From an uncultured Verrucomicrobiae bacterium (GTDB taxonomy: Bacteria > Verrucomicrobiota > Verrucomicrobiia > Limisphaerales > UBA1100), in NCBI GenBank assembly GCA_937775205.1, contig CALKBX010000008.1, positions 1 through 64,000 on the forward strand: a stretch of DNA of 64,000 nt, written 5' to 3'. The translations under genes were made by a program, and so were the position numbers. Shown here one piece after another: positions 24,650 to 60,010 of the stretch. Within the stretch, counting starts at the first letter, position 1. Every line of letters begins with the position of its first letter. Under the pieces are notes generated by a model. It ran no database searches. It was not told the origin of the DNA and was given only the letters and a program-made list of their open reading frames with translations.

Positions 24650-24652
24650 ATC

Positions 24653-36800: not shown

Positions 36801-39800
36801 CAGCCCGAGCGCGGATTCAAATTCATCGTTGCGTTCCGTCGCCTCCGCCGCCATCGCGAGGCGGGTGTAGGCGGCGGCATTGCGGGGTTGCAGCTCAATG
36901 AGTTTGCGGAATTTCACACGCGCTTCCTCAAAGCGTTCGAGTTGAAACAATTGCGAGCCAAGCGCGTCGATGAGCACGGGATTGTCCGGCTCCGCGAGCA
37001 CGGCGCGTTCGAGCTCGGCAATCGCGGCTTCCGGGTTGCCCGCGTCCAGGAAAAAATCCGCCTGCTCCACCGCGTTATTGGGTGCGGGTGGGGCCGGTTT
37101 TATTTCTGGCTTGGCTTCGACGATGGGTTCCGGAGCAGCTTCAGCGGTGGCCGCGGGTGCGCCCTGTTCAATCACTTGCAAGTTTTCGCGGGCGAGTTGG
37201 TCTTCTGAATCAAACTCCAGCAACTGCCGGTAAGTGTTGGCCGCCTGTTCGGCGTTGCCCGTTTCGTATTGGCAAACCGCCAGTGCGTGCAGCAAGCCGG
37301 ATGTCACTCCGCCATCGGCAGCGATTCGGCCATAAATTTTCTTCGCCGAAACACGGTCGCCAGTGAGGAAAGTATAATCGCCAAGCAACTGCATCGCCTC
37401 GCGGTTATCCGGCTCCAAATCCAGCGCCGTGACGAGGCACGCCTCGAAGGTCTCGCGGTCATCCGTGTGGAATGCCGCCAGCCCCAGCTGCAAATGCGCC
37501 ACCACATCCTCGGGGCACACCTCCGCCAGCGCGGCAAAATTCGCTCGCGCTTCGGCGAATTGCCCGGCGGCAAACTGCTGGGCACCCAGCGCGCGCAGCA
37601 GCATCGGATGCCGGTCACCCAGCTTCAGCGCCTGCGTCAACGCGGCAATGGCGCCGGGCACATCTTTTTGTTCGTGGCACTGCTCGGCTTGGTCCAGCCA
37701 TTTTTCCAGTGTGCCTTCGGGTAGTTGAGGGGTTCCGTTTGTATCGTTCATTGTAGAATCAGGGGTAATGGATTCGTTGGGTTGGTTAAACTGATTTTCG
37801 GTTTTGAAATCGCCTTCTCCATAATCGGGCTCATCACCGCGCGCCAGCCAGTCGAGCACCTGCCGCATTCGCACCTCGGCGGTGTGATGCCGCAGCACTT
37901 TTGCGCGCGCGCTTTCCGCCATTTGCTGAGCGGCTTCGGGATTTTCCTGCAACCGCAAAATGGCTTGCGCCAGCCCGCGCGCATCTTCGCGGTCAAACAA
38001 TTCAATCTCCTGCCCCGGCGCAAACAGCGCGCGTGTGCGTGCGCGGGGTGGGTCCCACGAAATCACCGGCCGACCCGCCGCCATGCTCTCCACCACGCGC
38101 CCGGCGTAGCATTTGAAAATGGAAGGCAAATTCACCTGCGCGTAGCTTTGCTGCAGGCCCTCCATCCAGAGGTCGTTCAGGCGACGGCGCAGGCGGCGCA
38201 GGTTTATGAGATATTCATCCAGCCAATCCGGCTCGACCACGTCGTAGAGGCTCACGCGATTGAGCGAGTTAATTTGCAGCACATCAAATTGCCGCGGGAA
38301 ACCGGAGCCAATCTCGGGCAAGGGCGGCTGCGTTACCAACCCCGCGCCAATGGCGGATTCGAGCAGCCCTTTCCGTTCCAGGTTATAAATCGTGCCATGA
38401 AACGCCGCTGGCCCCGGCTCGGGCAAAGCCACCGAATCGCACACCTCGCGCCAAGTGACCACCGGCGGGCACCACATCGTGGGAATGTTCAATTCCTCCG
38501 CCAGCGTTTCCGCATCGCGATCATCAAAAGTGAGCGCGTGCGTGCAATGCTGCAGGTGGCCCTTCACCTTGTCGCGTCGGCTGCCAAGATTGGAGTGTTG
38601 TTCCTCCTCCTCCGGCGTGTGCTCCAGCGATTCCATAATCACGCCCACGCGCACGTCGGTTTTGCTCTTTATCCAATCCAAAAATTCTGGGTCATAATCA
38701 TTGTGCGTAATCCAAATCCAAGCTTGGTCAAATTCCTCATGCAAAAACATATACTTCGCCTGACCCAACCACGAAGCCGGATGATCCGAAGGCACCCCCG
38801 CCAGCGCCGGCAACGTCCGGAACTCCACCTCATTCGCCGCCAACCCTTCTTCCAGCGCATAAAACCCATTATACGACCACGCCTTGGCGTTCTGCCAATT
38901 GCCGCACTCGAAGCCCACTAACAAAATTTTCTTCTTCGGCCGCGCGCCCGTCGGCCGCACCAAATGCGCCGCCCGATCGCTGTCCACCCGCACCGGTTCG
39001 TTGGCCTCCGTGCCGAAGGGATCCGCCGCCAGTGGCAGCGCTTCCTGCCCGGGGAGTTTCACCAAATCCACTTTGTCGTACTCGCTCGACGAATACGAAC
39101 TGCACACCGAACCCTTTTGCATCCGCCGGTAGCGGCTTTCCAATTCATCCAGACCCGGCACCGGTTCGCCCAGCAACTCGTGGCATTTCACCAACAACAA
39201 AAATGCAGGCTCCAAAATAATGCTGCGACGCGCAAGTTGATCCAGCAACACCACCGCCCTCGCCACATCGTCCGGCTCACGCCGATGCAATAGCGCGCGC
39301 GCCAGTGCGTAACGGTAATATGGGAAATCCGGATTCCAATCCACAGCCTGCTCCAGCGGCGCCACCTCGCCGGTGTATTGGCCGAGATAATGCGCGAGTG
39401 AAGCTCGGATCAAATTGGCCAGCGGCTTACTCTCCACCACGCCTTTGCCGAGCGCCTCGGTGAGCGTGTCGAAATAACTGCGATAATCAAAACACGTGCT
39501 GTGATAATCCCACGGCATCACGTCCTCTTCCGCATACACGCTGCCAGTGGTCGGCCGGTTGGGTGAGCAATTCGCGGGTGATCACCAGCGCCTTCTCCAC
39601 GCCTTCCGGATCGCCCAAGTGGAATGCGTGCCGCAGCGCGTTAAACCGCAACACCAGCGAATGCGGATGCTGTTTCCAGCCGTCCTCGTAAATTTCCCGC
39701 GCCACGTTGTGGAGCAATTCGTTTTCACGCTCAAACGCCTGCACCATGTCCAGCCGCTCAGAACGATCCACCAAATCCGGCATGTCCTCGGTCATATAAA

Positions 39801-39935: not shown

Positions 39936-41237
39936 TTACGCGTTTCTGATGCGGCTGCGCTTCAGCGCGTCCGCTCGCGCTCCCTTGGCGATTGCTGCGC
40001 GTACAGTGAGAAAACGCAGGAATTGAGAACCACAAATGGATTGAGCAAACTGTGTGCGCACCAATGCGCGCCCGCGTTGTGCAGCGTCCCGATATTTTTC
40101 CCAGTTGCCTGTTATCTTTTGCAGGCTATCCATCAGGTCATCCCGCTCCGTGTGGTACACCACCACGCCTTCGTTTTCGCCGGCGAACAATCGCAACGCA
40201 CTTTCCTCTTGCGTCAGCACCGCGCACCCCATCGCCAGCGACTCGATACCGCGCGAAGGCATACTGCCCGGATGCCGCACATAGGTGAAGGATGCCTTGG
40301 CTCGGGCCATCTCGGCGTAATATTCTGCCGGCGCTAAAAATCCATCAATGTGCCGAATTTGAGCACAGTCTTCATCAATCCATTGTTGTAGTAACCGCGC
40401 CTTGTCCGGGTGATACGGACTGCGCATTGTGCCGGAGATGAACAAATCCACGTCGCGCACACAGTTCTCATCAAGGATAGGCAGGCACTTTAAATCGAGC
40501 CCGAAGAGTTTTGGAAAAGTGCAAACCGGCCCCGGTCGCAATGCGGACGCCTTGGCCCATTCCTCCGCGCCCACGGTGATGACCTCGTCGAACACCGGCA
40601 GCACCGGTGCGTTATTTTGGATGTGCAAGTCCAAGTCCGAGGTGGTGCCGAAAACGGGGAAGGGTAGCTCGCCCAAGTCGTTGGGCAGAAACTGCCACTC
40701 AATCATGTGGGCAAAATAAAAGTCCGGGGTGCCTTTGATGGAATCCGCCGCTTTCAAAAATGGCTTCACCGGACGGCAATCCAAAATGATGTTTCCATTT
40801 TCATCGCGCCGAGTGCGATTTAGCCCAATGCGTTGCAGCGAAAATTTGTCATCCGTGAAATCCCCGTCCTCCCAAACCGTTTGTGCCACCACCTCAATGC
40901 GTTCCTTGCTGATGAGCCGCAGCAATTCAGCCGCCTCCGGCAAATCCAGTTCGCGTAAAACTTCCTTCGCCTCGTCCTCGCGCTTGGCCATCCACAACGC
41001 CGCCGCAAAATAAAATCGGGCTTCGGGATCGGTCTCGTTTTCCAGCACATCGAGGGCGAGATCCATCCGCCCCACCAAACCCAACGCCGCGGCCTGGCGC
41101 CAACCGGCTTCGCCCTGTTCGCCCGCCGCGCCACAGAAATTGCCCGCGCGGAACCAGTCCGCAGCAGGCCCGAGCGTAACGGGGGGCAGCGAGTAATGAC
41201 CCGCCTCCCGGGGGGGGGATGGCTTTGCAACATCCAT
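39936..41237 (-). CDS. CgeB/GT4-like glycosyltransferase with helical N-terminus
   Basis: It has 433 residues. The first ~115 residues are helical repeats (EAGWRQAAALGLVGRMDLAL). The rest is a GT-B-like domain with a C-terminal nucleotide-sugar motif (YVRHPGSMPSRGIESLAMGC). The ATG at 41237 lies about 4 bases from the start predicted for the sigma-54 promoter, so the message may be almost leaderless. It is followed after 32 bases by the giant glycosyltransferase. Donor and acceptor are unknown. Confidence 0.75.
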   Translation of the reverse strand: MDVAKPSPPREAGHYSLPPVTLGPAADWFRAGNFCGAAGEQGEAGWRQAAALGLVGRMDLALDVLENETDPEARFYFAAALWMAKREDEAKEVLRELDLPEAAELLRLISKERIEVVAQTVWEDGDFTDDKFSLQRIGLNRTRRDENGNIILDCRPVKPFLKAADSIKGTPDFYFAHMIEWQFLPNDLGELPFPVFGTTSDLDLHIQNNAPVLPVFDEVITVGAEEWAKASALRPGPVCTFPKLFGLDLKCLPILDENCVRDVDLFISGTMRSPYHPDKARLLQQWIDEDCAQIRHIDGFLAPAEYYAEMARAKASFTYVRHPGSMPSRGIESLAMGCAVLTQEESALRLFAGENEGVVVYHTERDDLMDSLQKITGNWEKYRDAAQRGRALVRTQFAQSICGSQFLRFLTVRAAIAKGARADALKRSRIRNA

Positions 41238-41354: not shown

Positions 41355-42447
41355 TTAACGATAACTACAATTGTAATGCGGCTTCAAGAGTGCTCGAAAA
41401 GTTGCTTTTTGGATGGCTTTGGGTGGCGCTTCGGGCGGTGTGGGATCTTGGGAATGGCGCTTTGTGTCCTCGGCTGGTTTTCCAAGCAGATCGGCCAATT
41501 GCTTTTTGGCGATGAGGTTTTTGGGAAGCGTTCATTGAGTTCGCGGAATTCTCGAATGGCGTCCTCTTCGTTTCCAGTTTCCAACGCGCCTTGGGCGGTC
41601 GCCAGTAAGGATTTGTTCCATTTCCGCCGCGGTGGGTTTCACGCAGGATTGAGATTGCGGGTCACCGGCGGCCTGAATATTCAGCGCCACATTGCGGGCC
41701 TGATTTTGCACCATCGTGCGATAAAAATCGCTGGCGATGAATTCAAAGTTGATGCGGCGATCGGTGTCCCAGCGATCCGATTCGCGGGTGTCCACTTCAT
41801 CGTGCAGCACGCGGTACACTTGGGGTTGATCCAAAAAGCGCGTGCGATTGAGTCCGTGATCCTGCATAGAGATACCATTGGATGACCAATGACCACGCAT
41901 CAGTAAAGGACACGTGGCCGAGGCCGCCGCAAATCTCAAGCAGCTTTCCGACTCCAGAATGGCCCTTCATCAATGATCGCCAATGCGTCCATATGATCGA
42001 GATTGTAGTGCGGGTAAAAAGGCTGCTCATTAAAGTGCGGTCGATAAAAGCACGGGTGCGGCCGTTGATGAATCATATAAATATCATCCTCAAAATGAGT
42101 GGTCTCGGCCAACACAGTGGTGTCCCAATTTGGCTGCGTGACCACGAAATCATCCGCGAAGGCGCCCATCACAATGGATCGATCATCGGCCAGCATCATG
42201 GCGCGGGTGTAGCCGATGTGGATGTCGATGTACCCGCGGCCTCGCGGTTCGACAATGTGTTTCACCGCGAAGGGATAATTTTTTAACTGTGGGAGATAGT
42301 CGGGCACCTTGGGATCACAAGTGTCGAACTTCACCAGCACTTCAAAATTATTATGATCGGCGCTGTAGTCGACAAGCTTTGCAGCAGATTTGGCAAACCC
42401 CAGTTGGGATTGCTCTCGATGCGGGAGGTAATGAGTAGGCTGATCAT
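41355..42447 (-). CDS. Glycosyltransferase-like protein with short TPR tail, frameshifted
   Basis: It starts at ATG 42447 in an ATGA overlap with the previous gene: MISLLITSRIESNPNWGLPN is a family 2-like opening. After a shift near 42365 it continues NNFEVLVKFDTCDPKVPDYL, then MLADDRSIVMGAFADDFVVT. Further shifts near 41950 and 41880 lead through RTRFLDQPQVYRVLHDEVDT to a helical tail (EEDAIREFRELNERFPK, then LADLLGKPAED). It is the last gene of the long operon. At least four frame changes make the exact C-terminus (41355-41384) uncertain. Probably a glycosyltransferase; specificity unknown. Confidence 0.5.
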
Positions 42448-43255
42448 GCTTGTACAGTGTTGAGGTTTCGTTTGCCGAGCAAGTCGCCCAGTTTTTCCCG
42501 CGCGGAATTTCGGCGGCGGATTTGTAGCGGGCGTGGGTGCGTGCCCATTCGCCATTGGATTCATAATCCCATTGGCGCATTACGCCGCCTAATCCCTTGT
42601 GGAATTTCAGCGCCACGTCGCCATCAAATTGATTGGCCCAGTCGCCGGAAATGCCTTTGCGGAACATGTACTGCGTGCGCACGGTTTCCCCCATTTGGCC
42701 GCGCCGGCGTTGGGTGACTTTTTCAAAACTGTGCCGCGCGCACGATTCTTGCAGAGCGGCGTCGGTGGCCGGCACTTCGGCAAAATCCAAAATGCGCCGT
42801 AATCCGGCGGGAATATTTCGCTTCAATTCCTCAAACGTGAGGTTCATCACATTGGCCTGCTCAAGTGCCCGCCAAGAATTTGCATCGTCAAATAAATCAA
42901 GAAAATTAGATTCTTTATCCACATATTCGAGATACAATTCGATTTCGGTTTTATCCTCATCACACAACCCTCGATGAATGGCGTCTTTAACGTGCGACAC
43001 CAGCACATCACGTGGGTCGCGTGTGAGGCAGATAAACCGAAAATCATCCCGTGCCACGAAATCGCCAAAGAGCTCCGGCCCGCTGTGCGTCCAGTGGAAT
43101 GCGCGTTTGCCTGCGGCGACATCTGCCGCCAACTTTTCCAGTTCCGTAGGGCCGGAGAAAAATTCGCAGCCCGCCGCCTTCGCGAATTCCTCCAGTACCG
43201 GCATCACAATGGACGCCCCGGCGTTGGGTAGATTGTAAAAAACAACGTGTTTCAT
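42444..43255 (-). CDS. Sulfotransferase-fold protein, candidate phosphoramidate transferase
   Basis: About 270 residues from ATG 43255. The 5' loop appears as [20 protein letters not shown] and the 3'-phosphate-binding motif as [18 protein letters not shown], both marks of enzymes using 3'-phosphonucleotide donors such as PAPS. It is closely similar to the C-terminal domain of the kinase fusion encoded at 44009-45455. With one shift near 42500 it ends KLGDLLGKRNLNTVQA in an ATGA overlap. Given the adjacent CDP-phosphoramidate kinase, I infer transfer of phosphoramidate rather than sulfate. True sulfotransfer remains possible. Confidence 0.65.
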
Positions 43256-43260
43256 AAAAA

Positions 43261-44007
43261 TCAATCCTTCAATTGTGCGGCCCACAGGCGCGTGGTATAG
43301 CCCACCCCCAGCACTTTGCCGTGTGCCGCGGTGATCGCTTCGATGCCGCCGATGATGCCCGCGAAAGCTTCGCCGGCCTGGCGTTGCAGCGTGCCGTGCG
43401 AGCGCCACGCTTCCACGTAAGCCTCCGCCGGAACGCGTGCCACATACGAGGCTTCGATGAAAATCGGTTCTCCAAAAAGGCCGCTTTCACGGATGACTTC
43501 CGTTTGATCTTCGCGTCGCGTGCCGTAGCCGTAGCCGTCGATGCGGCTCTTGATGTAATCTTCCACCTCGGCCTGCAGCGAGTGGTTCAGATCACGGTGG
43601 TTCCACAAACAGGCGAACCAACCATTCGGCCGCAGGATGCGTTGCGTTTCGCGCAGGGCTTCCGGGCGGTCGGTGGTATTAAAGGATGACCCGAATGTCA
43701 CCGCATCAAAAGCGTTATCCGGTTGGCCGGTGGCTTCGCCGGTGCCCACGTGCCATTGCACGGGTTTGTTGGCGGTGACGCGCATACCCACCGCGCGCAT
43801 TGCGTCATTGGGTTCCACGGCGGCGACATTGCAGCCGCGCGCCATGAGTAACTTGGTGAGATGCGCGGAGCCCGCACCCACGTCGCACACGGCAGCATCC
43901 TGTCGCAGCTCGGCGAGGTCACAAAAACGCACCACCGCTTCCACGGCATAGTCCGGCCGATTCAAATAATGCGGCGCCAGTTCAGTATAGTCCCATTCTG
44001 TTTTCAT
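43261..44007 (-). CDS. Class I SAM-dependent methyltransferase
   Basis: It has 248 residues and an intact frame. SAM motif I is AAVCDVGAGSAHLTKLL (about residue 37), the acidic motif II is AAVEPNDAMRAVG, and post-motif FDAVTFGSSF is present. It is related to ubiE/Methyltransf_11-type enzymes. It starts one base after the kinase-transferase fusion gene. In C. jejuni a methyltransferase caps the phosphoramidate as its O-methyl ester; this gene is a candidate for the same step or for sugar methylation. The substrate is not deducible from sequence. Confidence 0.75.
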   Translation of the reverse strand: MKTEWDYTELAPHYLNRPDYAVEAVVRFCDLAELRQDAAVCDVGAGSAHLTKLLMARGCNVAAVEPNDAMRAVGMRVTANKPVQWHVGTGEATGQPDNAFDAVTFGSSFNTTDRPEALRETQRILRPNGWFACLWNHRDLNHSLQAEVEDYIKSRIDGYGYGTRREDQTEVIRESGLFGEPIFIEASYVARVPAEAYVEAWRSHGTLQRQAGEAFAGIIGGIEAITAAHGKVLGVGYTTRLWAAQLKD

Positions 44008-44008
44008 A

Positions 44009-45455
44009 TTAGTTTAGATCAATTCTGGGTTTGGATTGGAAAAGGTTTTTAATTTGTTGATCCGGGTTAAAGCGCGACGACGCGGTGAGCCCGTTGATGC
44101 GCGCGGTCATTTGTTCCAGTTGCAACATACTGGCGAACAGAGTGCCATCGAACTGCGAACTGGGGCGTTCCTCGCGGCAACGCTGACGTGGGCCTCGGCC
44201 CATTGGCCGGTGGGCTCGTGGCCCCAGGCGCGTAGGTATCGGCCGAAGCGGCGTTGGAATAGCCGCGCGGTTTGGCCGTCGAAATGATTGGCCCAATCGC
44301 CGGTGATGCCTTTGCGGTACAGGAATTGGCCGCGCAGGGTGTGACCGTTTTCCCCACGCGCCCGCCCGGTGATTTGCTCGAAGCTGTGTTTTTGGCAAAG
44401 CGCATTTTGGGCCGTGGGGCTGGCGGGAATGCCGGTGAATTCCAATAGTTGCCGCACGGTGGCCGGGACATCCGTTTTCATTGCCTCAAAATCCAGTTGA
44501 AAAACATTGGTCTGCTCCAGCGCGCGCCAGGCGTGGGCTTGCTCGAACCACTGATTGAAGCCAGATCGAATGGCTTCCTGGAAAAGTTGCTGCTCGGGTT
44601 TGCCTTCGTGCAGCCCGGCTTGGATGATGTCTTTTATGTAAGACACCAACACATCGCGCGGATCGCGGGTGAGGCAAATAAAGCGGACATCCTCGCGGTC
44701 GAGTTCGGCGGCGAATGTTTCCAGTGGATGATGGGTCCAGTGGAAAACGGGGTCGCCCGATTCCAGCAGCGGATGGAAACGATGCGTCTCGGCGGGGCTG
44801 GCGAGGTTGGCGTAGCCGTGGGCTTCGGCGAGGGTTTCGAGGATGGGCACCAGTGCGGAGGCACCGGAGTTGGGGAGGTTGTAAAATACCACGTGCGGTC
44901 GTTGCGAAAGCGAATGCAGGCCGAGGGCGGAACGCAGGAGTTCATTTGCCAGTTCGGTTGCCGACCGCAGTGGTGGGTTATTGTTCAGCACTAAATCGGG
45001 TTGGGCGGGGCGATCGTATTCGAGGTCGAAGCCGGCCACGTTTTTGACTTCCCCGCGGGCGGCGCGGCTGTAAAGGCCGCGGGCATCGCGTTCGCATAAT
45101 TCGGCCCAGTCGACATCCACCCAGATTTCAAAATAATTCGGCAAGTGCGCGCGGTTCCATTCGTGGATTTCACGAAAGAGCGACATCGTGGGCACGATGA
45201 CAGTTTGCCCTTGCTCGGCGAGCAAGCTGCGCTAGGCGGCTGATGCGGTACGCGTTGGCAAGGCGGCTGGTGGCGTCGTGGCCGGTTTTGGAATCGGCGA
45301 TTGCCGCGCGCACGGCATCGCCATCGAGCACCACGGGGCGCTCGCCACGCGCGCGCAATTGCTCGGCGGCGGCGGCGGCGATGGTACTTTTGCCGGAGCC
45401 GGAAAGTCCGGTAATCCAAAGCACGCGGCCGGTCGTTGTTTAAGTTTTCGGTCAT
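44009..45455 (-). CDS. CDP-phosphoramidate kinase (APS-kinase-like) fused to sulfotransferase-fold domain
   Basis: About 480 residues, interrupted by three single-base shifts (near 45430, 45233 and 44165). N-terminal ~170 residues: APS-kinase fold with P-loop [40 protein letters not shown] and [20 protein letters not shown]. This corresponds to C. jejuni Cj1415, which phosphorylates the 3'-OH of CDP-phosphoramidate. C-terminal ~290 residues: sulfotransferase fold ([36 protein letters not shown]) ending near 44009. The fusion suggests that the 3'-phospho donor made by the first domain is used by the second. A normal PAPS-making kinase plus sulfotransferase is the alternative, but the three upstream genes argue against it. 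Confidence 0.75.
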
Positions 45456-45469: not shown

Positions 45470-46231
45470 TCAGCGGCTTCCCAGCGCCAATCGTGTTCCC
45501 AATTGGGACGGCCGAGGCGGTTCTTCGTACAGGCGCAGATCGGTTTCGCTATCCACCTCGCACCATCGGCCTCGGGTGGGGGTGGCGTTGATTTCCGCGC
45601 CGTCTTCCAGCAATAGCTGGAGCAGCGAAGTCATATCCAGCCGGTCGCGCCGCGCCTTGGGCAGGTCGTCGAGGATCACCTCGATGCGGCGCCAACCGGC
45701 TGGAGAAATTTTGAGCAGGCCCATGTATTGGCCTTCGATGTCGGTGACTTCGGCCGCACGATCGCCGATGGATTGCAGCGCGCCGTTGTCGCGCAGGCGA
45801 AAAGTCTCGGCATCTTCGAGCGGATCGGCAAAGCGATCGCGCCAGAGCGGCAGCCATTCCTGATCGTAGCTGATGACCAATTCGCCGGGGTTAAAAATAA
45901 GCTGCTCAAGAATGGCGGGGTGATAAACGATATCGGAATAAGACACGATGCAGTCATCGCGCTGCAGCCATTGGCTGGCGCAGGCGAGGGTGCTGACCAT
46001 ATTGGTGCGGGCCCAGTCGGGGTTTTCAAACCAAATGCAATCGGCGGGGTTAAGCGACTCGGCAAGATACCCGCGCACGATGGCGATGTCGCGAATGCCG
46101 GCGGCGCGCAGTGCTCCCAGTTGCCACTCGAGCAACGTGCGCCCGGCAAATGGTGTGAGGCATTTCGGGTGATCTTCGGTGAGCCCTCCCATACGGGAGC
46201 CGCGTCCGGCTGCTAAAATGATTGCGCGCAT
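45470..46231 (-). CDS. CTP:phosphoglutamine cytidylyltransferase (Cj1416-like)
   Basis: It has 253 residues, a single nucleotidyltransferase domain: AIILAAGRGSRMGGLTEDHP with PKCLTPF, and the metal-binding SYSDIVYHP. The length equals that of Cj1416 as I remember it. In that pathway the enzyme couples CTP to L-glutamine phosphate. By itself the sequence could be read as a LicC- or MobA-type cytidylyltransferase; its neighbours decide the call. It starts 4 bases after the hydrolase gene. Confidence 0.72.
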   Translation of the reverse strand: MRAIILAAGRGSRMGGLTEDHPKCLTPFAGRTLLEWQLGALRAAGIRDIAIVRGYLAESLNPADCIWFENPDWARTNMVSTLACASQWLQRDDCIVSYSDIVYHPAILEQLIFNPGELVISYDQEWLPLWRDRFADPLEDAETFRLRDNGALQSIGDRAAEVTDIEGQYMGLLKISPAGWRRIEVILDDLPKARRDRLDMTSLLQLLLEDGAEINATPTRGRWCEVDSETDLRLYEEPPRPSQLGTRLALGSR

Positions 46232-46235: not shown

Positions 46236-46880
46236 TTATTTCTTCCAACCTAAAGTGGTGCACAGCAGGTTCTGGTCCAGTTGCGCCTGCAAGTTATCCC
46301 CATCGCGTTCGGGATGCCATTGCACGGCGGCGATGGGCGCGGCACGGTGGCGCACTGCCTCCACGCAGCCATCATCGCTGGCGGCCAGCAGTTCGAGCGA
46401 TGGAGCCAGTGTGTTCGCGGGCACGGCCCAGTTGTGAAATGAATTAACCGTGGCGCGTCCGGGCGCATCGAATTCCAGCAAATCTGTTCGCAAATGCACG
46501 GTGTGTTTTTGGGCCAAATGTGTTTTGGGCTCGCACCGGCGCAGTGCGCCGCCGCCGCGTTGTTGCAGCAATTGCATCCCGCGGCATACGCCGAAGACCG
46601 GCAGCGCGTGGCGCACGGCGTGATCGATCACGGTGTTCTCGGTTTTGTCGCGGATGGGACAGTTGCCGAGGTCATTGCCGCCGGATAAAATAAATCCATC
46701 GAGCTGCCAGTGCTGGATAAACTCCGCCACCGCCGCGCCAAGGTTGGGGATGGGCACCCACGCCACATCCGGTGCGAGCGCGGCCATATAGCGCGCCCAA
46801 TCCTGAGCCAAGCAATCGCGCGATTCACCGGAACCGGCGGCTTGTCCCACTCTCATTGTGATGCCAATACGTTCAGCCAT
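46236..46880 (-). CDS. Gamma-glutamyl-CDP-amidate hydrolase (Cj1417-like, peptidase C26)
   Basis: About 214 residues from ATG 46880 (MAERIGITMRV), overlapping the previous gene by 8 bases. Class I amidotransferase fold: GFILSGGNDLG, nucleophile Cys in VFGVCRGMQLL, and His/Glu in AVQWHPER. Cj1417-type enzymes release glutamate to give CDP-phosphoramidate. PuuD-like gamma-glutamyl-GABA hydrolase is the family alternative, but no polyamine genes are nearby. Confidence 0.75.
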   Translation of the reverse strand: MAERIGITMRVGQAAGSGESRDCLAQDWARYMAALAPDVAWVPIPNLGAAVAEFIQHWQLDGFILSGGNDLGNCPIRDKTENTVIDHAVRHALPVFGVCRGMQLLQQRGGGALRRCEPKTHLAQKHTVHLRTDLLEFDAPGRATVNSFHNWAVPANTLAPSLELLAASDDGCVEAVRHRAAPIAAVQWHPERDGDNLQAQLDQNLLCTTLGWKK

Positions 46881-49350
46881 AAATTGGTCGGAGTAATTTT
46901 GCCGCGCCATCGAGCTCCACCCGGTTGGCGGCGGCAATACGTTCAAAAGTTTGTTCGCCCACGCCAATAGCCGCGGGCAGGCCGAGCTCGGCGCAGCGGA
47001 TGGTCATGTGGCTGTTGGCACCGCCGAACTTGCTGACAAGCCCAGCGATGTTGCGCGTGAAAATCCAGTCGAATCCCGGATCGGCATTTTCGATGCAAAT
47101 GATGCGCCCGCTCAGTTGGCCGTGGCCGCGGGATTGATTGCCCAGCCGTAGTGGCTCACCTTCCACGTGGCGGTTGCCGACAAAGTTGGGCGCGCTACGG
47201 TGCAGCGGCACTACATAGAAATCACCCGGATCTCGGATGAGATAGCCCAGCCGAATGCCATCCACGTTTTCCTGTTCGCGTCGGCGCTGTTCGACGAGAT
47301 CCTCAAAGTACAGCTCGGGATCGTTGAGCACCGGGCTGACGAGGTGATTGAGCAAATCCTGCACCGTGAGATGCGAGAGCGCGTCGCGGTCCAGCCGCGT
47401 GTCGCTGCCCCAATGCGCGATCAGCTCCAGCGCATCGGAAAGGTGCCGCGTGAAAATGAACTTGGCGCGTTCGCGCTCGGTGATGGCTTGGCGCGCGTAC
47501 TCGATGAATTGCCCCGGCTCCACGTCCGGCATCCCCGCCTCGGAAAAAAGTTCCTGGAACAACTGCGCCTCCTCACGGGTGAGCGGGAAAATGGCATCAC
47601 TGGTGGCCGGCTCGGGCTGGGCGGTGGCGGCAAACAAATCATCGCGTTGATCGTAACGCGGCGAGGTGATGTCATACGTGCCCGGGCGCAGATGGCCGTA
47701 CTTGGCGAGAAACTCCGGACGCCGGCGCGGTTGCGCAAGGGCTTCAGCAAAGTCGCCGGTGAAATCCGCCGTCACTGTGCGCAGAGTGCGCTTGAAGGCC
47801 GCCAGCCGTTTGCCCGAAAGTGCGTCGCGTGTTACCGCCGAACGTAGAATGGCCTCCGCCATAAATGCGTGCCGCGCGATGACCGAAAATGGACGTGTGC
47901 CCAGCGCGCGGCATTCTTCGAGCAACACCGGCAAATGCGCCAAGTCGTTGAGCGGGCGGCGCTGGGTTTGCAGTGCCTCGAGCTGATGGATTTTTTCCAG
48001 GGCTACCGGTAACGAAGCGCCGGGCACAAGGCTGAGGTTGGTGGCGGTGAGTTTCGAAAGTTGATTGCGGTAATCGAGATACTCATCCGGCTCGAGCACA
48101 TCGTCGTAGCGGTTTTGGAAATCTTCGTCGAAATTAAAATCCAACACCGTCTGCGCCACTTCAAACTCCACCTTGTCGTGCAGTTTCGGGTTGGCCTCCA
48201 AACGGTCAAGCCACGCATCGACCAGTCGTTCGCGTGTTTTGATAGGCAATCCGGCGGGCAGAAACGAATTAAAACTCGCGCGCACATCGATGTACGGCTG
48301 GCCGCCGAGCGTGAGCATCAGCGGCGTATGCGGCACTGGCTGGTAACCCATCTCCGCGCGGGCCTCCTGCCAAATGGAATCGGTGATGAGATGCCGGTAC
48401 AGCGAAACTGCCAGCGGTCGCGGGCGGGTGCCGATAATCTCAGCGGGATTCCAGTCGGGCATCTGCCCAAGAATAGTGCGCGCTCCGGCCAGTCCCGCGT
48501 GCGGTTGGGCATGGCGCGTGAAAAATTCGCCCGCCTGAAACAGCACTTCGCCGACGTGACGGCTGATGCGGCGGTTCCAGTTTTCCTGCACCGTGATGCG
48601 CCGCACCTGCAGCAAATGCAACTGCCCGTCGCGCGTTTTGGCAAATTCAATATCCAGCGGCGTGCCGCGATCGCACAGGCTTTCCAACTCGCGCGTCAAC
48701 TCCAGCAACTCCGCCACGCGCGGTGAATCCACGTGATCGGTCACATAATCACGATGTACCAAAACTGTTTTATTGACCACACTGCCGCCGGTGATGGTGT
48801 CGGTCTTGCCGGTTTCATCATCGTAATTCAGCACGTAATACGGCGCGCCAGTGTCCAGCTCGTGCGTCATAATTACGCCGCTCAAAGTCACGTCCGTCAC
48901 CATCGTCATCACCAGCACCTGATTTTCCGGGCAATCATCCATCGACCCGATGACTTCCTCCACCGCGCTCCACACCGCGCGTGGTTGACTGCTGTCCACG
49001 TCCAGGCAGGAGGCAAATGCGCCGGCTTGAGAGTGCTGTTCGCCGTCTTCGTTTACCGCGCTGCTGCGGAACACCACTTGTCCGCCGCCAAATCGCTCGT
49101 TTATTTCCTGAGTGATTTCCACCGGCAACGCCGACCACTCGGCTACGGTAAAACTAATCAACTTCGGCACCGCCGCTTTTTTCACCAACGGCTGCAACGC
49201 CGCGAGTGTGTCCGATTTTGTTCCAAAACTTCCCAACACCGTCGGCATCACCGCCGCCGTTGTGCAGGGCGCGGACACCGCGAAATCCTCAAGCAAATCT
49301 GCGCTTGAGGACTCGCTCTCCGTGTGGAGGTCTTGGCAGGCGATGGTCAT
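46873..49350 (-). CDS. L-glutamine kinase (Cj1418-like, PEP-synthase family)
   Basis: About 825 residues from ATG 49350, which overlaps the radical SAM stop as TAATG. N-terminal ATP-grasp PPDK domain: VVFRSSAVNEDGEQHSQAGA, VLVMTMVTDVTLSGVIMTHE, HLLQVRRITVQENW. The C-terminal swivelling domain carries the catalytic His: GGANSHMTIRCAELGLPAAI. The size and domain order fit Cj1418, which phosphorylates the glutamine side-chain amide as the first committed step of phosphoramidate synthesis. A pyruvate-using PEP synthase would have an additional PEP-binding barrel, not evident here. Confidence 0.75.
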   Translation of the reverse strand: MTIACQDLHTESESSSADLLEDFAVSAPCTTAAVMPTVLGSFGTKSDTLAALQPLVKKAAVPKLISFTVAEWSALPVEITQEINERFGGGQVVFRSSAVNEDGEQHSQAGAFASCLDVDSSQPRAVWSAVEEVIGSMDDCPENQVLVMTMVTDVTLSGVIMTHELDTGAPYYVLNYDDETGKTDTITGGSVVNKTVLVHRDYVTDHVDSPRVAELLELTRELESLCDRGTPLDIEFAKTRDGQLHLLQVRRITVQENWNRRISRHVGEVLFQAGEFFTRHAQPHAGLAGARTILGQMPDWNPAEIIGTRPRPLAVSLYRHLITDSIWQEARAEMGYQPVPHTPLMLTLGGQPYIDVRASFNSFLPAGLPIKTRERLVDAWLDRLEANPKLHDKVEFEVAQTVLDFNFDEDFQNRYDDVLEPDEYLDYRNQLSKLTATNLSLVPGASLPVALEKIHQLEALQTQRRPLNDLAHLPVLLEECRALGTRPFSVIARHAFMAEAILRSAVTRDALSGKRLAAFKRTLRTVTADFTGDFAEALAQPRRRPEFLAKYGHLRPGTYDITSPRYDQRDDLFAATAQPEPATSDAIFPLTREEAQLFQELFSEAGMPDVEPGQFIEYARQAITERERAKFIFTRHLSDALELIAHWGSDTRLDRDALSHLTVQDLLNHLVSPVLNDPELYFEDLVEQRRREQENVDGIRLGYLIRDPGDFYVVPLHRSAPNFVGNRHVEGEPLRLGNQSRGHGQLSGRIICIENADPGFDWIFTRNIAGLVSKFGGANSHMTIRCAELGLPAAIGVGEQTFERIAAANRVELDGAAKLLRPIYG

Positions 49351-50918
49351 TAGCAATTCAAACGAGGCAGGTTTCTGGTGCGGCAGTTTCCAGCAACTGA
49401 CGGGGCAGGGGCACTTTGGCTCATGTCCTCCACGTTCAGGCGCTGGGCGCGGCCGAATTTTTTCTCAACTAAATTGAGATAATCGGGGTTGGTAAAATAA
49501 GTCTGCCAAGCGTCATCGCGGAAGCGCACCACTTCGGCGGCGCTCAAATGCTTGGTGGGCAGCGGCTGGCTTTCGTATGACAAGAATGCGTAGCCCTCAT
49601 AGTTGGTTGGCAGCGGCCAGCCGTTTTGCTTGGCCTCGTAATACAACGGACTGCCGGGCAGGGCTTGGCACGGATACATATTGGCCATCTCGGTGTTCAG
49701 CTCCAGCGCGAGGTCGAGCGTTTGTTGCATCGTCTCGTGGGTGTCATCCGGGAAACCGTAAATGTAATTGGAAATGATGTTCACGTCCGCCTCGCGAATT
49801 TCGCGTGCTACTTCGCGGATGTTGATGTCCTTAAACGACCCTTTCGATACTTCGCGCCGTACTGCTTGGTTGCCGGCCTCGACTCCGAGCGCCAGCCAGC
49901 CGATGCCCGCACGCTTAAACAGATCGAGATACTTCGGGCGTACCGTATCGATGCGCGAGTACGCCCACATCCGCAGCGATAGCTCACGGTCGATGATGTT
50001 GTTGAGCAACGGTTCGAAATACCGTTTGTCCAAGAAAAACATTTCATCCGAAATCCGCAACGTCTCCACGCCGAGGTTGGCAAGCGTCTCGAATTCTTTC
50101 GTGATAAAGTCCGGCGACCAATACCGCATTTTGCGCGAGTCCGACGAGTTGATGCCATCGCCGTTGTCCTCGCGGTTCACGATATTGATCATACAAAAAT
50201 TGCAGGCAAACCGGCAGCCGAGCGAAGTATAAATCGCCGCAAACGGCGTGCGCTTGGCGTGATCAAACTCCGCGTGCCAAAAATGCGCGCGGTACAAATC
50301 CAAGGGCTGCTTGTCGTACGGCAGCAAATCCCACGCGTAGCCCGGCAGATCGATGTCCATCCGTTCCTGCGGCACCACGTGCTCCGGCGCATTCAGCCAC
50401 GGCCGCCCGTGCAGCTTGTGGCCGATGCCCTTCACCTTCCCTACCTCGTCATCGAGATTGGAGCGCAACAAATTTTGCACCGCATAAACGCCTTCATTCA
50501 ACAGCACATAATCAATGCTATCCTCCGTCAACACTTCCAACGGCAGCGCGCTCGTGTGCGAACCGACGATTGCGATTTTGTATTCCGGATAAGCCGCTTT
50601 CAACCCGCGCGCCAACGCGATGGCACCGATCATATTGGTCGTGCCGGAGTTCGGGTTCTGTCCATAAACTGTCAGGCAAACGAGGCGCGGGTTGGCCTCG
50701 TCGATGCGCCGCACCGATTGCTCCAGCGTGAGTCGCTCTGCGCCGGTGTCCAAAATCGCCGCCTCAAAACCATTGCTCCGGCAGGCCTGCGCGAGCAGCA
50801 GCGACCACGTGGGCGTCTCGATGGCCGAATATTTTTGGGCCAATTCCTGATACGCCTTCGCCGAGGAATCGGGCGAGACGAACAGCACGTCGAGTTGTTT
50901 GTTCAAAGATTTAATCAT
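49350..50918 (-). CDS. B12-binding-domain radical SAM enzyme
   Basis: It has 522 residues. Residues ~10-150 are a cobalamin-binding-like Rossmann fold (LVCLTVYGQNPNSGTTNMIG, KIAIVGSHTSALP). The DxHxxG His is not seen (ILDTGAERLT), as in many class B members. The radical SAM core has SLGCRFACNFCMINI (CxxxCxxC) near residue 235, plus GWLALGVEAGNQAVRREVSK. It lies two bases after the ColD-like gene in the operon. A methylation or rearrangement of the sugar or of the phosphoramidate precursor is possible; the reaction is unknown. Confidence 0.75.
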   Translation of the reverse strand: MIKSLNKQLDVLFVSPDSSAKAYQELAQKYSAIETPTWSLLLAQACRSNGFEAAILDTGAERLTLEQSVRRIDEANPRLVCLTVYGQNPNSGTTNMIGAIALARGLKAAYPEYKIAIVGSHTSALPLEVLTEDSIDYVLLNEGVYAVQNLLRSNLDDEVGKVKGIGHKLHGRPWLNAPEHVVPQERMDIDLPGYAWDLLPYDKQPLDLYRAHFWHAEFDHAKRTPFAAIYTSLGCRFACNFCMINIVNREDNGDGINSSDSRKMRYWSPDFITKEFETLANLGVETLRISDEMFFLDKRYFEPLLNNIIDRELSLRMWAYSRIDTVRPKYLDLFKRAGIGWLALGVEAGNQAVRREVSKGSFKDINIREVAREIREADVNIISNYIYGFPDDTHETMQQTLDLALELNTEMANMYPCQALPGSPLYYEAKQNGWPLPTNYEGYAFLSYESQPLPTKHLSAAEVVRFRDDAWQTYFTNPDYLNLVEKKFGRAQRLNVEDMSQSAPAPSVAGNCRTRNLPRLNC

Positions 50919-50920: not shown

Positions 50921-52126
50921 TTACAGGGTGTTCAACAGTTCAGTCAGCAGCGTGATGCGTTCGGGCTCAAGGTCGGGATAGTTCCCAATGTACCAGCCGT
51001 AAAAGTGGACGTGATTTGTAAAGGGATAATTTTTGTACTCATCGCCAAACCGCTCGCGGGCATAAGGCTGCCGCAGTTGATTGCCGCCACCGGCGGTGCC
51101 GCGGCGAAATTCCACTTTCCATTCACGCAACGTGCTTTCCACGCGATCGCGCAGGGCATCGTCCGGACTGCGCAAAATCAATGTGAACGCGTAATTGCTG
51201 CTGCCTTCCACGGCGAAATCGGTTTGGAATTTCGAGGAGTCCAAGCCATTTAAGAAGCGCTTCAAGTTACGCGTGCGAATGGCATTGTTGTCGTCCAAAC
51301 GCTTCAGTTGATGGCGCCCAATCACTGCGTTGAGTTCGGTGCCGCGCACGTTGTAAGCGGGATAAGCAAAAATAAATTCCGGATTCAAATCCGGATGCTT
51401 GGATTGGTAACGTTCCTTCGTTGATTGCTCCGACGCTTCGCGCACCATTCCGTGCGAACGATAGATGCGGATGGCTTCGTAAAGTTCATCGTCATTTGTG
51501 CAAACCATCCCGCCCTCAACCGTGCTGAGATGGTGCGCGTAATAAAAAGAAAAGTTCGAAGCCCAACCCATACTGCCCACGCGCTGGCCGTTGAACGTCG
51601 CGCCGTGTGCTTCACAGCAATCTTCAACCAACGGAATGTTGCGCTTCTCAAGTTCATCGAGCAAACGCTGATCCAGTCCGTTGTACCCGAGCACGTGCGT
51701 CAGAAAAACGGCCTGCGTTTGGTCGTTCACTTTGTCGAGCACTTGCGAAATATCCATGCCGAGCGTGCGCGGATCAATGTCCACAAACACTGGCGTCAAG
51801 CCCGCGTGCAGCACCGAGGCGATGTCGCTCACCCACGTCAGCGTGGGCACAATCACTTCGCCTTCACCCTTGAGCTGGCGCAGCGCGGCCATCGTCACGA
51901 GGTTCGCTGCCGAGCCGGAATGCACAAACACACTGTGCTTCACGCCGAGCCACTCGCTCCATTCGCGTTCGAACTCGCGCACGTTTGTTGACTGTGTGAG
52001 AATCGGATCGTCCTGCTGCAAAAATTCAATAAGACAATCTAAATCCGCCCGCGTGATGTTATTGCGCATCAACGGCCACGGGCCGAGGGCGGTTTGCGGT
52101 TCAGCGATGGCGGCGCTATTTTTCAT
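50921..52126 (-). CDS. ColD-like PLP sugar 3-dehydratase (DegT family)
   Basis: 401 residues from ATG 52126, which overlaps the previous stop by 11 bases. DegT/DnrJ/EryC1 fold with VFVHSGSAANLVTMAAL and LVEDCCEAHGA. Where aminotransferases have the PLP-binding Lys, this protein reads SFYYAHHLSTVEGG. The His matches ColD and RfbH, which remove the sugar 3-OH. The [2Fe-2S] cysteines of RfbH are absent, favouring the glutamate-coupled ColD type. The substrate is likely an NDP-4-keto-6-deoxy sugar, probably GDP-linked given the neighbours (inference). Confidence 0.78.
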   Translation of the reverse strand: MKNSAAIAEPQTALGPWPLMRNNITRADLDCLIEFLQQDDPILTQSTNVREFEREWSEWLGVKHSVFVHSGSAANLVTMAALRQLKGEGEVIVPTLTWVSDIASVLHAGLTPVFVDIDPRTLGMDISQVLDKVNDQTQAVFLTHVLGYNGLDQRLLDELEKRNIPLVEDCCEAHGATFNGQRVGSMGWASNFSFYYAHHLSTVEGGMVCTNDDELYEAIRIYRSHGMVREASEQSTKERYQSKHPDLNPEFIFAYPAYNVRGTELNAVIGRHQLKRLDDNNAIRTRNLKRFLNGLDSSKFQTDFAVEGSSNYAFTLILRSPDDALRDRVESTLREWKVEFRRGTAGGGNQLRQPYARERFGDEYKNYPFTNHVHFYGWYIGNYPDLEPERITLLTELLNTL

Positions 52127-52661
52127 TATAAAAATCTCCGTATTCCACGAGAATCGTACTCTTGCCATCCTCCCGCGTGCGGGCTTTTTCGTAGGCGGGG
52201 AAAACCTCATTCGCTTCTTCAAGCCGAATAACCTCCACGTTTTTCAACATCGAGCGGTAGGCATCGGTGTAATCGCCGATGTGCTGATGGCCCGGATGCA
52301 GTGGGCGTTGCGAGCCGATGCTGGTGCGGATGATGGCTTTAGGCTGGTAACCGCCCGCGGACATCTCGCTAAATTTATCGAGGTGATTGACTAGTTGATT
52401 GGTGGCGAGCAGCAGAAAATTCCAGCGCGGGAAAATGCTGACCGGCAGTTTTCCCTGCAGCGCGAGGCCATTGGTCATTCCCATTTGCATGTCCTCATCT
52501 ACGGGCAGCTCCACTTTGCGGTCGTTGGAAATTTCCTTGAGCGTGTTGCTCATCGCCGTGCCGGGGCAGGCAACGGCTTGGCCGATGAACACCGTGGCCG
52601 GATCTTCGGCGAGGTATTCCATCGAGCGTTTTAGTTCATCAAAATATTTCAGCAGTTTCAT
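52116..52661 (-). CDS. ThDP-dependent enzyme, beta (Pyr) subunit
   Basis: 181 residues from ATG 52661. Transketolase/E1-beta pyrimidine domain: TVFIGQAVACPGTAMSNTLK, with the ThDP-activating Glu region VELPVDEDMQMGMTNGLALQ. It is only about half the length of a usual E1-beta and lacks the C-terminal transketolase domain. It pairs with the alpha subunit 11 bases upstream. Split, short E1-like pairs are known for two-carbon branch formation on sugars, as in avilamycin AviB1/B2. That role here is inference. Confidence 0.72.
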   Translation of the reverse strand: MKLLKYFDELKRSMEYLAEDPATVFIGQAVACPGTAMSNTLKEISNDRKVELPVDEDMQMGMTNGLALQGKLPVSIFPRWNFLLLATNQLVNHLDKFSEMSAGGYQPKAIIRTSIGSQRPLHPGHQHIGDYTDAYRSMLKNVEVIRLEEANEVFPAYEKARTREDGKSTILVEYGDFYNEK

Positions 52662-52672
52662 GGCGTTCGTGC

Positions 52673-53341
52673 TTAAAATTGTACGCGCTGGCCAGCGCCG
52701 GCGTGCGGGTATTTGGTTTCGTATTGGTAATAGGTGACGTACGGGTTGTCGGCGTTCTCGTAAGTGAGCGTGTCCACGCCCCAAGTTTCGCGGGTGTCGG
52801 TGCAAACGCTTTTGCCGTTGTCCTCAATCACAAAGTGCACCGGCAGCTCATGGTTTTGTACATACTTGATGCACTCATGAGCTGAGCCGGTTTCGGAAGT
52901 CATATCGCCAAGGAAACACCACACGCGTTCCTTGCCGCCCTCGCGCTGGATGCCGAGGCCGAGCCCAACGGCGATGGGGAGCACGCCGGTGACGATGGCG
53001 GAACTCAACACGCGGTGCTCGGGAAAATTCAAGGTGATGGAATGACCGGCCATAATTTCGGTCTTCACTTCATCAGTCGGCACGCCTTTGAGCAGGCATT
53101 GATAATGACTGCGCCACGAGCACAGCACCCAATCATCCGCGCGCACGCGGTCGAACATATCAATCATCTCGCGCTCGTTGCCGGAATAAAGATGCACCGG
53201 CGCCTTAATTTTTGAGGCGTTAAATTCGTCGGCGATGTCGTCCTCGAAAGCAATTAGCTCCTCGGGCGTCCAACGCGGCAAACCGCCCGCGGTTAATTCG
53301 TCGGCGGCGGTTTCGGGTTCGCAAATGAATGGGGGTCTCAT
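52673..53341 (-). CDS. ThDP-dependent enzyme, alpha (PP) subunit
   Basis: 222 residues. E1-alpha-type ThDP-binding domain with the GD...N motif: WCFLGDMTSETGSAHECIKY followed by HFVIEDNGKSVCTDT. It also has the E1-like VLCSWRSHYQCLLKG and SAIVTGVLPIAVGLGLG. It is shorter than dehydrogenase E1-alpha (~330), and no E2 or E3 gene is present, so it is not a 2-oxoacid dehydrogenase complex. It begins 3 bases after the GHMP kinase gene. Confidence 0.74.
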   Translation of the reverse strand: MRPPFICEPETAADELTAGGLPRWTPEELIAFEDDIADEFNASKIKAPVHLYSGNEREMIDMFDRVRADDWVLCSWRSHYQCLLKGVPTDEVKTEIMAGHSITLNFPEHRVLSSAIVTGVLPIAVGLGLGIQREGGKERVWCFLGDMTSETGSAHECIKYVQNHELPVHFVIEDNGKSVCTDTRETWGVDTLTYENADNPYVTYYQYETKYPHAGAGQRVQF

Positions 53342-53344
53342 GAT

Positions 53345-54436
53345 TTAGGCAAAATTAGCGAGTGCTTCGGCGGTGGCCTCCACGTCATCGAGTTCACGGA
53401 ATTCGGCCAATTGTCGGGATTTATTGTCGGCCTCGGCGGCTGAGTAGTCCTGATCGCGGTCGTAAAAAATCACCTGACTTCCAGCTGTTTCAAAATTGAA
53501 CGGCACGTGAATGAGGCGATTGAGTTTCTCACGCACCGCTGGTTGGAACTGCGGCGGCACGAACAGGAGCATAAATCCTCCCCCGCCCGCGCCGGTGATC
53601 TTGCCGCCGATGGCGCCTGAATCACGAGCGGCGTTATATAGTTCACTGATGGCATCGTTGGAAATTTTTTCACTGATCGCCTGTTTGGTCAGCCAACTTT
53701 CGTGCAGTAACTCGCCGTATTCCTTAATCGGCCCGTGACCGCACAGGACGGCGAGGGCTTCTTCCACCATATCGCGCAGGATGCGAAGTTGGCGGCGTTT
53801 CTTTTCAAGTGAGGGCACATAGCTGCCGGCCACCTTGTCGGCGGTGCGCTTGATGCCCGTATAAAAAAGCATGAGATGCGACGTGAGTTCATTGAGCCGA
53901 TCGGGCGGGATGATCACCGGTCGCACCGAAATTTCTCCGGAAGTGTGGAAGGTAATGTGGTTGAATCCGCCGTACGCCGCGTTGACTTGATCCTGCGAGC
54001 CGACGGTTTCTTTCAACAAATCCTGTTCCAAATGAATGCTCTCATTGGCGAGTTGTTCCTTCGTGGCCATGTGGCCCTTGAGGGCGTAGAGAGCGTTGAG
54101 GAGACCGACCGTGAAGGCGGAGCTGCTGCCCATTCCGCTGCGGGCGGGGAGGTCGCCGTCGTGATGAATCTCAATCCCGCGATTGAGGTTCATAAATTTC
54201 AGCGTGGCGCGCACCGAGGGATGCTGTATTTCTTCAATAGTATTAGTGCTCTCGATTTGCGAATACACCACGCGAAATTGATGGTCGAAAAACGGCGGCA
54301 AATGGCGCGCGTTAATGTAGCAGTACTTGTCGATGGTGGAGGAAAGCACCGCGCCGCCGTGCTCGCGGTACCAGCCCGGATAGTCCGTGCCGCCGCCAAA
54401 CATCGAGATGCGATAGGGGGTTCGAGTAATTATCAT
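53345..54436 (-). CDS. GHMP sugar kinase, heptose-7-phosphate kinase (HddA)-like
   Basis: 363 residues. N-terminal TRTPYRISMFGGGTDYPGWY is typical of HddA-like D-glycero-D-manno-heptose 7-phosphate kinases; the GHMP ATP loop is DLPARSGMGSSSAFTVGLLN; motif 3 is GGKITGAGGGGFMLLFV. It is the first gene of a twelve-gene operon with a perfect sigma-54 promoter 70-85 bases upstream. The leader contains an inverted repeat GGCAGG/CCTGCC at its 5' end (54473-54494). With the HddC-like gene upstream it would supply GDP-heptose. gmhA and gmhB are not in the window. Confidence 0.75.
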   Translation of the reverse strand: MIITRTPYRISMFGGGTDYPGWYREHGGAVLSSTIDKYCYINARHLPPFFDHQFRVVYSQIESTNTIEEIQHPSVRATLKFMNLNRGIEIHHDGDLPARSGMGSSSAFTVGLLNALYALKGHMATKEQLANESIHLEQDLLKETVGSQDQVNAAYGGFNHITFHTSGEISVRPVIIPPDRLNELTSHLMLFYTGIKRTADKVAGSYVPSLEKKRRQLRILRDMVEEALAVLCGHGPIKEYGELLHESWLTKQAISEKISNDAISELYNAARDSGAIGGKITGAGGGGFMLLFVPPQFQPAVREKLNRLIHVPFNFETAGSQVIFYDRDQDYSAAEADNKSRQLAEFRELDDVEATAEALANFA

Positions 54437-58490: not shown

Positions 58491-58569
58491 GGTTCGTTCC
58501 TTCTATTTGGTTGTTCTTGGTTGTGGGTTAAATTCCGTTCTAACCGGGATTTAATTGTTTTCTAATTGT

Positions 58570-58788: not shown

Positions 58789-58818
58789 GGGAATTTTTTC
58801 CTTTCACGGTTCGCTTCG

Positions 58819-59259: not shown

Positions 59260-59286
59260 AGCGACAGTTGTTTTCGGAGGTAACAA

Positions 59287-59603: not shown

Positions 59604-59629
59604 ACTACATCCCCATCAACCACCAACTA

Positions 59630-59989: not shown

Positions 59990-60010
59990 TCCTCAAATAG
60001 AACTTCCCCC

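Follow-up and report, generated by a model that had tools for sequence, protein, structure and literature searches.

The window, a stretch of 64,000 nucleotides from a contig of an uncultured Verrucomicrobiae bacterium, carries a glycan cluster flanked by genes for the flagellum. Flagellar assembly genes occupy 10006-29207 on the forward strand (FliF, an FlgE-like protein and FlhA are among those scanned, at about 10-29 kb), and at least two flagellins lie in 57678-63721 on the reverse strand. A flagellin gene was found in eight of the 100 sources searched, the window included. The cluster between the flanks is a flagellar glycosylation island. Within this island, a gene joining an APS-kinase-like domain to a sulfotransferase-fold domain sits in a phosphoramidate cassette, together with glutamine kinase, amidotransferase, nucleotidyltransferase and methyltransferase genes (Table 1).

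Table 1. Genes and gene fragments of the island, with positions in the window and the matches that identify them.
Feature	Position	Strand	Basis
TPR-glycosyltransferase	33858-39539	-	TPR, PF00535, PF13524
Glycosyltransferase, same island	39936-41237	-	PF13524
Second sulfotransferase (start of ORF 41936-43408)	42416..43288	-	PF00685 1.2e-22; 46% identical to the fused one
SAM methyltransferase (MKTxWDYT...)	43261..44007	-	PF08241 5.4e-16; recurs in 22 cassette loci
Fusion gene, C-terminal tail frame after the last frame break	44009..44398	-	third frame; no Pfam match
Fusion gene, C-terminal part of kinase and sulfotransferase-fold domain	44107..45225	-	PF01583 1.7e-14; PF00685 6.7e-25
Fusion gene (broken), N-terminal part of kinase domain	45170..45424	-	P-loop GLSGSGKS; PF01583 8.3e-15
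NTP transferase, in the place of phosphoglutamine cytidylyltransferase (Cj1416-like)	45470..46231	-	PF12804 5e-21; 67 loci have this cluster
Glutamine amidotransferase fold	46236..46967	-	best NCBIfam match gamma-glutamyl-CDP-amidate hydrolase NF045546, 99.9 bits, under cut-off 250
Glutamine kinase (Cj1418-like)	46873..49356	-	NF004508 (PRK05849) 894.2 bits, cut-off 501
B12-binding radical SAM protein	49350..50918	-	PF04055, PF02310
Sugar biosynthesis: DegT aminotransferase, TPP-dependent dehydrogenase E1 alpha, GHMP kinase	50921..54436	-	PF01041, PF00676, PF00288
Flagellins bounding the island	57678-58490, 61943-62593	-	PF00669 4e-27, 8e-26

The model matched by the glutamine kinase, NF004508/PRK05849, is one that we take to stand for Cj1418. 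The methyltransferase is a candidate for O-methylation of the phosphoramidate. Proteins of the B12-binding radical SAM family also lie upstream of cassettes in loci L110, L116, L121, L126 and L134.

The window has in common with the Campylobacter jejuni O-methyl phosphoramidate pathway (Cj1415-Cj1418) a glutamine kinase, an amidotransferase, a nucleotidyltransferase and an APS-kinase-like CDP-amidate kinase. It differs in that its kinase is joined in one protein to a sulfotransferase-fold domain, that a second such gene is present in the cluster and that the whole lies in a flagellar island. The C. jejuni transferases Cj1421 and Cj1422 are known by knockout. In the available text of one report, the C. 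jejuni gene set makes 3'-phospho-CDP-phosphoramidate, which is named there as the likely donor of the methyl phosphoramidate group (PMC11800397).

The fusion gene in the window differs from its relative in G003 by a single-base indel at each of three places, near 45.43, 45.23 and 44.19 kb; the window sequence was left as it is, and no base was restored. The genus is marine, and of its six other genomes four have the fusion intact and in one frame (G001, 490 aa; G003, 481 aa; G004, 493 aa; G005, 493 aa), and its tail is in the same frame as the rest in locus L052 and other relatives. The gene is cut by a contig end in G002, and no match to it was found in G006, a genome that is 73% complete. 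Two of the intact fusions (L052 and L054) match PF01583 (8.9e-33, 7.2e-35) and PF00685 (4.2e-26, 5.8e-21), and a local model finds kinase and sulfotransferase domains in all four. Among the four, dN/dS runs from 0.15 to 0.28 when the whole gene is taken and from 0.15 to 0.31 in its sulfotransferase half, with each half below 0.32.

The fusion, intact in four relatives and with a low dN/dS, is a genuine gene that is being maintained, with purifying selection on both domains. The frame breaks in the window were considered as the sign of a pseudogene; in view of the same two observations, an error in sequencing or a break of recent date is more probable. A reading made earlier from the sequence alone had taken the kinase to be continuous with the sulfotransferase domain after single-base repairs. 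Both points hold: the two domains share one open frame in G001, G003, G004 and G005, and the differences from G003 are indeed single-base indels. The motif that this reading quoted from the sulfotransferase domain is present, as given, in 44107-45225. Furthermore, these four open frames contain no stops, which for the relatives rules out a real stop between the domains.

The fused kinase, scored on the intact copy from L052, passes the NF004041/PRK05541 model (169.7 bits, cut-off 127) and fails the apsK equivalog TIGR00455 (123.2 bits, cut-off 138.7); the C-terminal kinase part in the window (44107..45225) scores 99.5 bits with NF004041. Three other cassette kinases that were scanned (L075, L078 and Azospirillum) likewise pass PRK05541 and fail apsK, and two real APS kinases give the reverse pattern. 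A kinase tree of 74 rows divides 64 cassette-locus kinases, the fused one included, from 10 of APS type at a branch with support 98, the latter counting two L118 kinases that lie in a cassette locus though they were labelled APS-type beforehand from their look. In the alignment, the fused kinase has TGHD, NAYRI and SLF.EIH.WNR where APS kinases have DLGFS, ENIRR and SPY..DR, and the other cassette kinases have motifs like its own. By its relatives, the fused kinase groups with the kinases of the cassettes, putative CDP-amidate kinases, and not with APS kinases.

The fused kinase has the same P-loop kinase fold as APS kinase (CysC, TIGR00455) and the same predicted 3'-phosphorylation of a nucleotide, but it lies under the apsK cut-off and has all three of the APS kinase motifs replaced. 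PAPS synthetases and CysNC likewise join an APS-kinase-fold domain to a pathway neighbour. In those proteins the partner is the upstream ATP sulfurylase, whereas in the genus fusion it is a putative downstream transferase.

The sulfotransferase domain of an intact fusion scores 92.3 bits with PF00685, against a cut-off of 22. In an AF2 model of the domain (seven sequences, pLDDT 71.9), residues 12-242 match cytosolic sulfotransferases. The best Foldseek match is SULT7A1 (8.4e-9), and VIA-align gives Z 16.7 with an rmsd of 4.4 over 216 residues for SULT7A1, and Z 15.2 for estrogen sulfotransferase bound to PAP and vanadate. The domain-only model was used because the sulfotransferase half of an AF2 model of the whole fusion was poor; in that model, which was set aside, the kinase half was good and the pTM was 0.41. 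As modelled, the fused C-terminal domain has the SULT fold.

A tree that includes 22 background sulfotransferases puts the fused domain in a clade of 13 domains (clade A; support 99/97), together with the second sulfotransferase of the island, the L075 gene and the first tandem domain of the gammaproteobacterium G451, and an Azospirillum gene. Each time, the genome and the glycan cluster have the cassette, in the genus, in G451 and on a plasmid of Azospirillum lipoferum. The L075 protein reaches 145 bits with the fused domain, as against 66 at most with background sequences; its gene is on the strand opposite to the cassette. Searched with a clade A model, the 387 genomes of the window's phylum gave only the window genome above the general-sulfotransferase level, and the 398 genomes of the G451 phylum gave only G451.

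A second clade (clade B; four domains, support 100/99) contains domains from G234 (Verrucomicrobiota, of another class), Desulfovibrio and Azospirillum, and the second domain of a tandem protein of G451. In the first three the gene adjoins the cassette, and in Desulfovibrio about 25 bases separate it from the glutamine kinase downstream. The tandem protein of G451 (L185:8829-10823, + strand, running off the contig end) joins clade A and clade B in one chain and is on a different contig from the G451 cassette. Its second domain had previously been labelled clade A, and the tree places it in clade B. Next to the tandem gene are TPP-dehydrogenase, transketolase and DegT genes that resemble the window's.

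A blind search of the fusion against 72,556 plasmid records gave as its best match a sulfotransferase on plasmid AZO_p6 of A. lipoferum 4B (33%, 117 bits). The neighbours of this gene are an NTP transferase, an amidotransferase, a PEP-utilising enzyme, a methyltransferase and an adenylyl-sulfate-kinase-like gene, and the cluster also has TPP-dehydrogenase, transketolase and DegT genes, as in the window; genes like the window's sugar set are also present on contig C110 of G451. Of 14 plasmid records with the glutamine kinase, nine were looked at, one of which (L182) has no annotation. Genes of both clade A and clade B are present in the A. lipoferum locus, and that of A. ramasamyi has one sulfotransferase-family-2 gene; the other annotated loci with glutamine kinase among the nine viewed have no gene annotated as a sulfotransferase. 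Phage records matched the kinase half only (five records).

The two clades share an altered active site. A Lys or Arg is present in the 5'-phosphosulfate loop of all 24 background sulfotransferases and of none of the 17 domains of clades A and B (0/13 and 0/4). Two residues ahead of the catalytic His, Trp stands in 17/17 of these domains and in 0/22 of the background, of which 14 have Lys there. In these counts related sequences are separate entries; counted by lineage, clade A has three and clade B four. The loop position is filled by Asn (10), His (2) or Tyr (1) in clade A and by Ala or Pro in clade B. Two of the 24 background sequences (L166 and L171) were under the score limit and stayed out of the trees; their loops were read, and both have Arg. 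For clade B and the second domain of G451 the loops were read from the translations, the automatic columns having misplaced some. The catalytic His and the Arg that binds the 3'-phosphate are kept in all 17 domains. In clade A, the His, Arg, Ser and RKG are kept in 13/13; in clade B, His and Arg are kept in 4/4, Ser in 3/4 and RKG only in L058.

The fused domain is like the cytosolic sulfotransferases (SULT, PF00685) in fold, in the 3'-phosphate motif RDPRDVLVS, in RKGxxGDW and in the catalytic His. It differs, with the rest of clade A, in the loop Lys, which is replaced by Asn, His or Tyr, and in the Lys two residues ahead of the His, which is replaced by Trp. In the vanadate complex, the corresponding Lys48 and Lys106 are in contact with the sulfuryl group being transferred. 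The accessible portions of two SULT1A1 reports count those lysines and the His among the active-site residues (PMC3206062, PMC6969939). As SULT2A1 has Ser, not Lys, at the second lysine position, loss of the loop lysine is the stronger sign of the two. The signature is absent in some cassette-locus sulfotransferase-like genes, namely L139 and those of the L128/L129 type. The genes of the latter type (L128:9009-9986, + strand; L129:17873-18862, - strand) belong to another sulfotransferase-like family near the glutamine kinase, and in L128 the gene lies directly upstream of it.

It is proposed, with reasonable though not high confidence, that the fusion is a two-domain enzyme of an O-methyl-phosphoramidate-type pathway, in which the sulfotransferase fold moves phosphoramidate from 3'-phospho-CDP-amidate to a glycan. 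Judged from its sequence, the fused domain is a strong candidate for the transferase that places phosphoramidate on a surface sugar. The fusion, the cassette, the class of the kinase, the sulfotransferase fold, the kept and lost residues and the recurrence in other phyla were observed; the donor, the chemistry, the acceptor and the order of methylation we infer as follows. The upstream enzymes would form N-phosphoglutamine, link it to CMP and split off glutamate, yielding CDP-phosphoramidate (functions carried over from Cj1418, Cj1416 and Cj1417), and the N-terminal domain, as a CDP-amidate kinase, would add the 3'-phosphate (carried over from Cj1415). The C-terminal domain would then bind the 3'-phosphate of the donor as ordinary sulfotransferases bind that of PAPS. 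Its His would activate a sugar hydroxyl for attack on the terminal phosphorus, whereby phosphoramidate would be moved and 3'-phospho-CMP would leave. The exchange of the loop Lys for Asn, His or Tyr, and of the second Lys for Trp, may fit the site to phosphoramidate rather than sulfate. The second sulfotransferase might serve another position, and the methyltransferase would add the O-methyl group.

Phosphoramidate transfer is the simplest reading because these proteins, which lie beside the donor-making enzyme or are fused to it, have preserved the part of the donor site that takes the 3'-phosphate and altered the part that takes sulfate. In its favour, too, the cluster holds the sole APS-kinase-like gene and the sole two PF00685 genes of the window genome. 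Against it, the loss of the lysines could also mean that catalysis has been lost. To our knowledge, no sulfotransferase-fold enzyme transfers phosphoramidate. A search of the literature, with most subscription journals outside its scope, gave no link between phosphoramidate and sulfotransferases, the terms co-occurring only in a reference list. The sequence-only reading had argued that the kinase makes a 3'-phosphorylated nucleotide and that the fused fold uses this product; this is the best-supported explanation, made considerably more probable by independent evidence (the class of the kinase, the recurrence of the clades in other phyla and the loss of the lysines with the 3'-phosphate residues kept), but transfer is an inferred step that the fusion suggests and does not, as was written, imply. 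The donor is best given as 3'-phospho-CDP-amidate, the synthesis of which by Cj1415 was already known in C. jejuni, according to the text available from PMC11800397.

The claim that a sulfotransferase fold moves phosphoramidate has to be narrowed to certain lineages. The glutamine kinase is above its curated cut-off in four of 387 sampled genomes of the phylum, and from a scan of species genomes the best 80 of 527 relatives, from many phyla, were taken as loci. Locus maps show that the kinase, nucleotidyltransferase and amidotransferase recur and that their partners are lineage-specific. Of 94 cassette loci (with the duplicates L053, L056, L062, L065 and L099 left out), 68 have the kinase. Eight of these 68, from five lineages including the genus, have a sulfotransferase by model. 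The remaining 60 have no sulfotransferase-model match, and 21 of them have a CDP-glycerol-glycerophosphotransferase-like (Glyphos_transf-like) gene. The sulfotransferase fold is thus a minority solution and not a general one, and most kinase-bearing cassettes must use something else.

The kinase is present in 8/8 sulfotransferase loci and in 60/86 of the others, a difference that is not significant (Fisher, 0.10); if L139, which is under the score limit and on a 6.6-kb contig, is added, the kinase is present in 8/9. In the 50 cassette genomes searched, which stand for 50 of the 80 loci, there are 113 PF00685 matches in 199 Mb, from which about 0.5 would be expected in 1.03 Mb of loci. The loci of those genomes hold three, with L129 as a fourth, a modest enrichment near the glutamine kinase.

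Other genes accompany the cassette kinase elsewhere. In many proteobacteria a pair of genes, exemplified by L081:8687-9268 (+) and 9265-9999 (+), lies between the kinase and the glutamine kinase, and encodes a protein of about 190 aa without a Pfam match and a formyltransferase-like protein (PF00551). The pair is fused in L080 and L083, and its first member is apparently joined to the kinase in L088, L112 and L137. Azospirillum cassette kinases (L176:22146-24686, - strand, 846 aa; L180:8681-11197, + strand, 838 aa) have about 650 extra N-terminal residues, and the likeness of this extension to a sulfotransferase of a second type, fused in the reverse order, was seen by eye and found no support from Pfam, PDB sequences or hhalign, so that it is no more than a lead. 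In L109, L119, L123 and L124 a protein of about 410 aa directly follows the cassette kinase; the one member scanned has no Pfam match.

Glyphos_transf-like genes lie near the kinase in 23 of the 68 kinase-bearing loci, and two loci of the genus, L054 and L055, have both such a gene (L054:7273-9099, - strand; L055:7659-9461, - strand) and the sulfotransferase. Further examples are L178:15930-17012 (+) and genes upstream of the kinase in L069-L074, L081 and others, and in some Glyphos_transf-bearing cassettes no kinase was found in the sequence examined. These genes are likely to be another type of phosphoramidate transferase. Their presence near the kinase, two genus loci included, would suit a fused domain that only binds the 3'-phosphorylated donor or the spent product and hands over to a GT-B type, glycerophosphotransferase-like transferase, and the missing lysines could in that case reflect lost catalysis. 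Such a role is unlikely, however, as no Glyphos_transf-like gene lies within 8 kb in the window, in L052 or in four other loci with the domain. The conserved catalytic His and the purifying selection on the domain also speak against it, as does the fact that two divergent clades both keep Trp-x-His.

Both domains are named for the chemistry of ordinary sulfation, in which the kinase would turn APS into PAPS and the fused sulfotransferase would sulfate the glycan, with the cassette acting separately. APS can be made in the cell, since CysD is present in all seven genomes of the genus (370-378 bits, under the cut-off of 396.6), and the window genome has no APS kinase besides the fused one. Similarly, the sulfation cluster of C. 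jejuni HS:19, in the part of its description that is available, pairs cysC with a sulfotransferase, but it has cysD and cysN beside cysC (PMC8743553), whereas CysD of the window genome is on a different contig (C10) from the cluster. The ATP sulfurylase PF01747 is absent in six of the seven genomes, and G003, the only one to have it, owns a separate APS kinase and sulfotransferase beside that gene. With the fused kinase under the apsK cut-off and both sulfate-contacting lysines gone from the domain, ordinary sulfation is quite unlikely.

Some sulfotransferases act on protein side chains, and the position of the cluster between flagellar assembly and flagellin genes would also be compatible with transfer of phosphoramidate or methyl phosphoramidate to an acceptor other than a glycan, such as flagellin itself or a lipid carrier. 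This is improbable, given the abundance of glycosyltransferases and sugar genes in the cluster and the placement of the C. jejuni group on sugars in the available text of PMC11800397. With flagellar genes on one side of the cluster and flagellins on the other, the acceptor is probably the glycan of flagellin, rather than that of a capsule.

Phosphoramidate transfer by the fused domain may be one case of a wider family, a proposal to which we give nearly even chances. On this proposal, sulfotransferase-fold enzymes with Trp-x-His and no loop lysine would be phosphoramidate transferases that use 3'-phospho-CDP-amidate as the cytidine counterpart of PAPS. The family would comprise two clades in at least three phyla, presumably spread by gene transfer. 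One genus has a member joined to the kinase that makes the donor, another lineage has members of both clades joined together, and the targets would be flagellin or other surface glycans.

If true, this would give a molecular identity to the step that completes phosphoramidate decoration in these lineages, and that step would become a direct assay of one protein. The two-residue signature could stop annotation pipelines from naming such genes APS kinase and sulfotransferase. The phosphoramidate cassette is widespread, as judged from the best 80 of 527 relatives in one scan, and flagellar islands are among its settings. The sulfotransferase fold is usually seen as a machine for sulfate; if one of its branches moves phosphoramidate, the ATP spent on the 3'-phosphate would be accounted for, since it would make the donor a mimic of PAPS.
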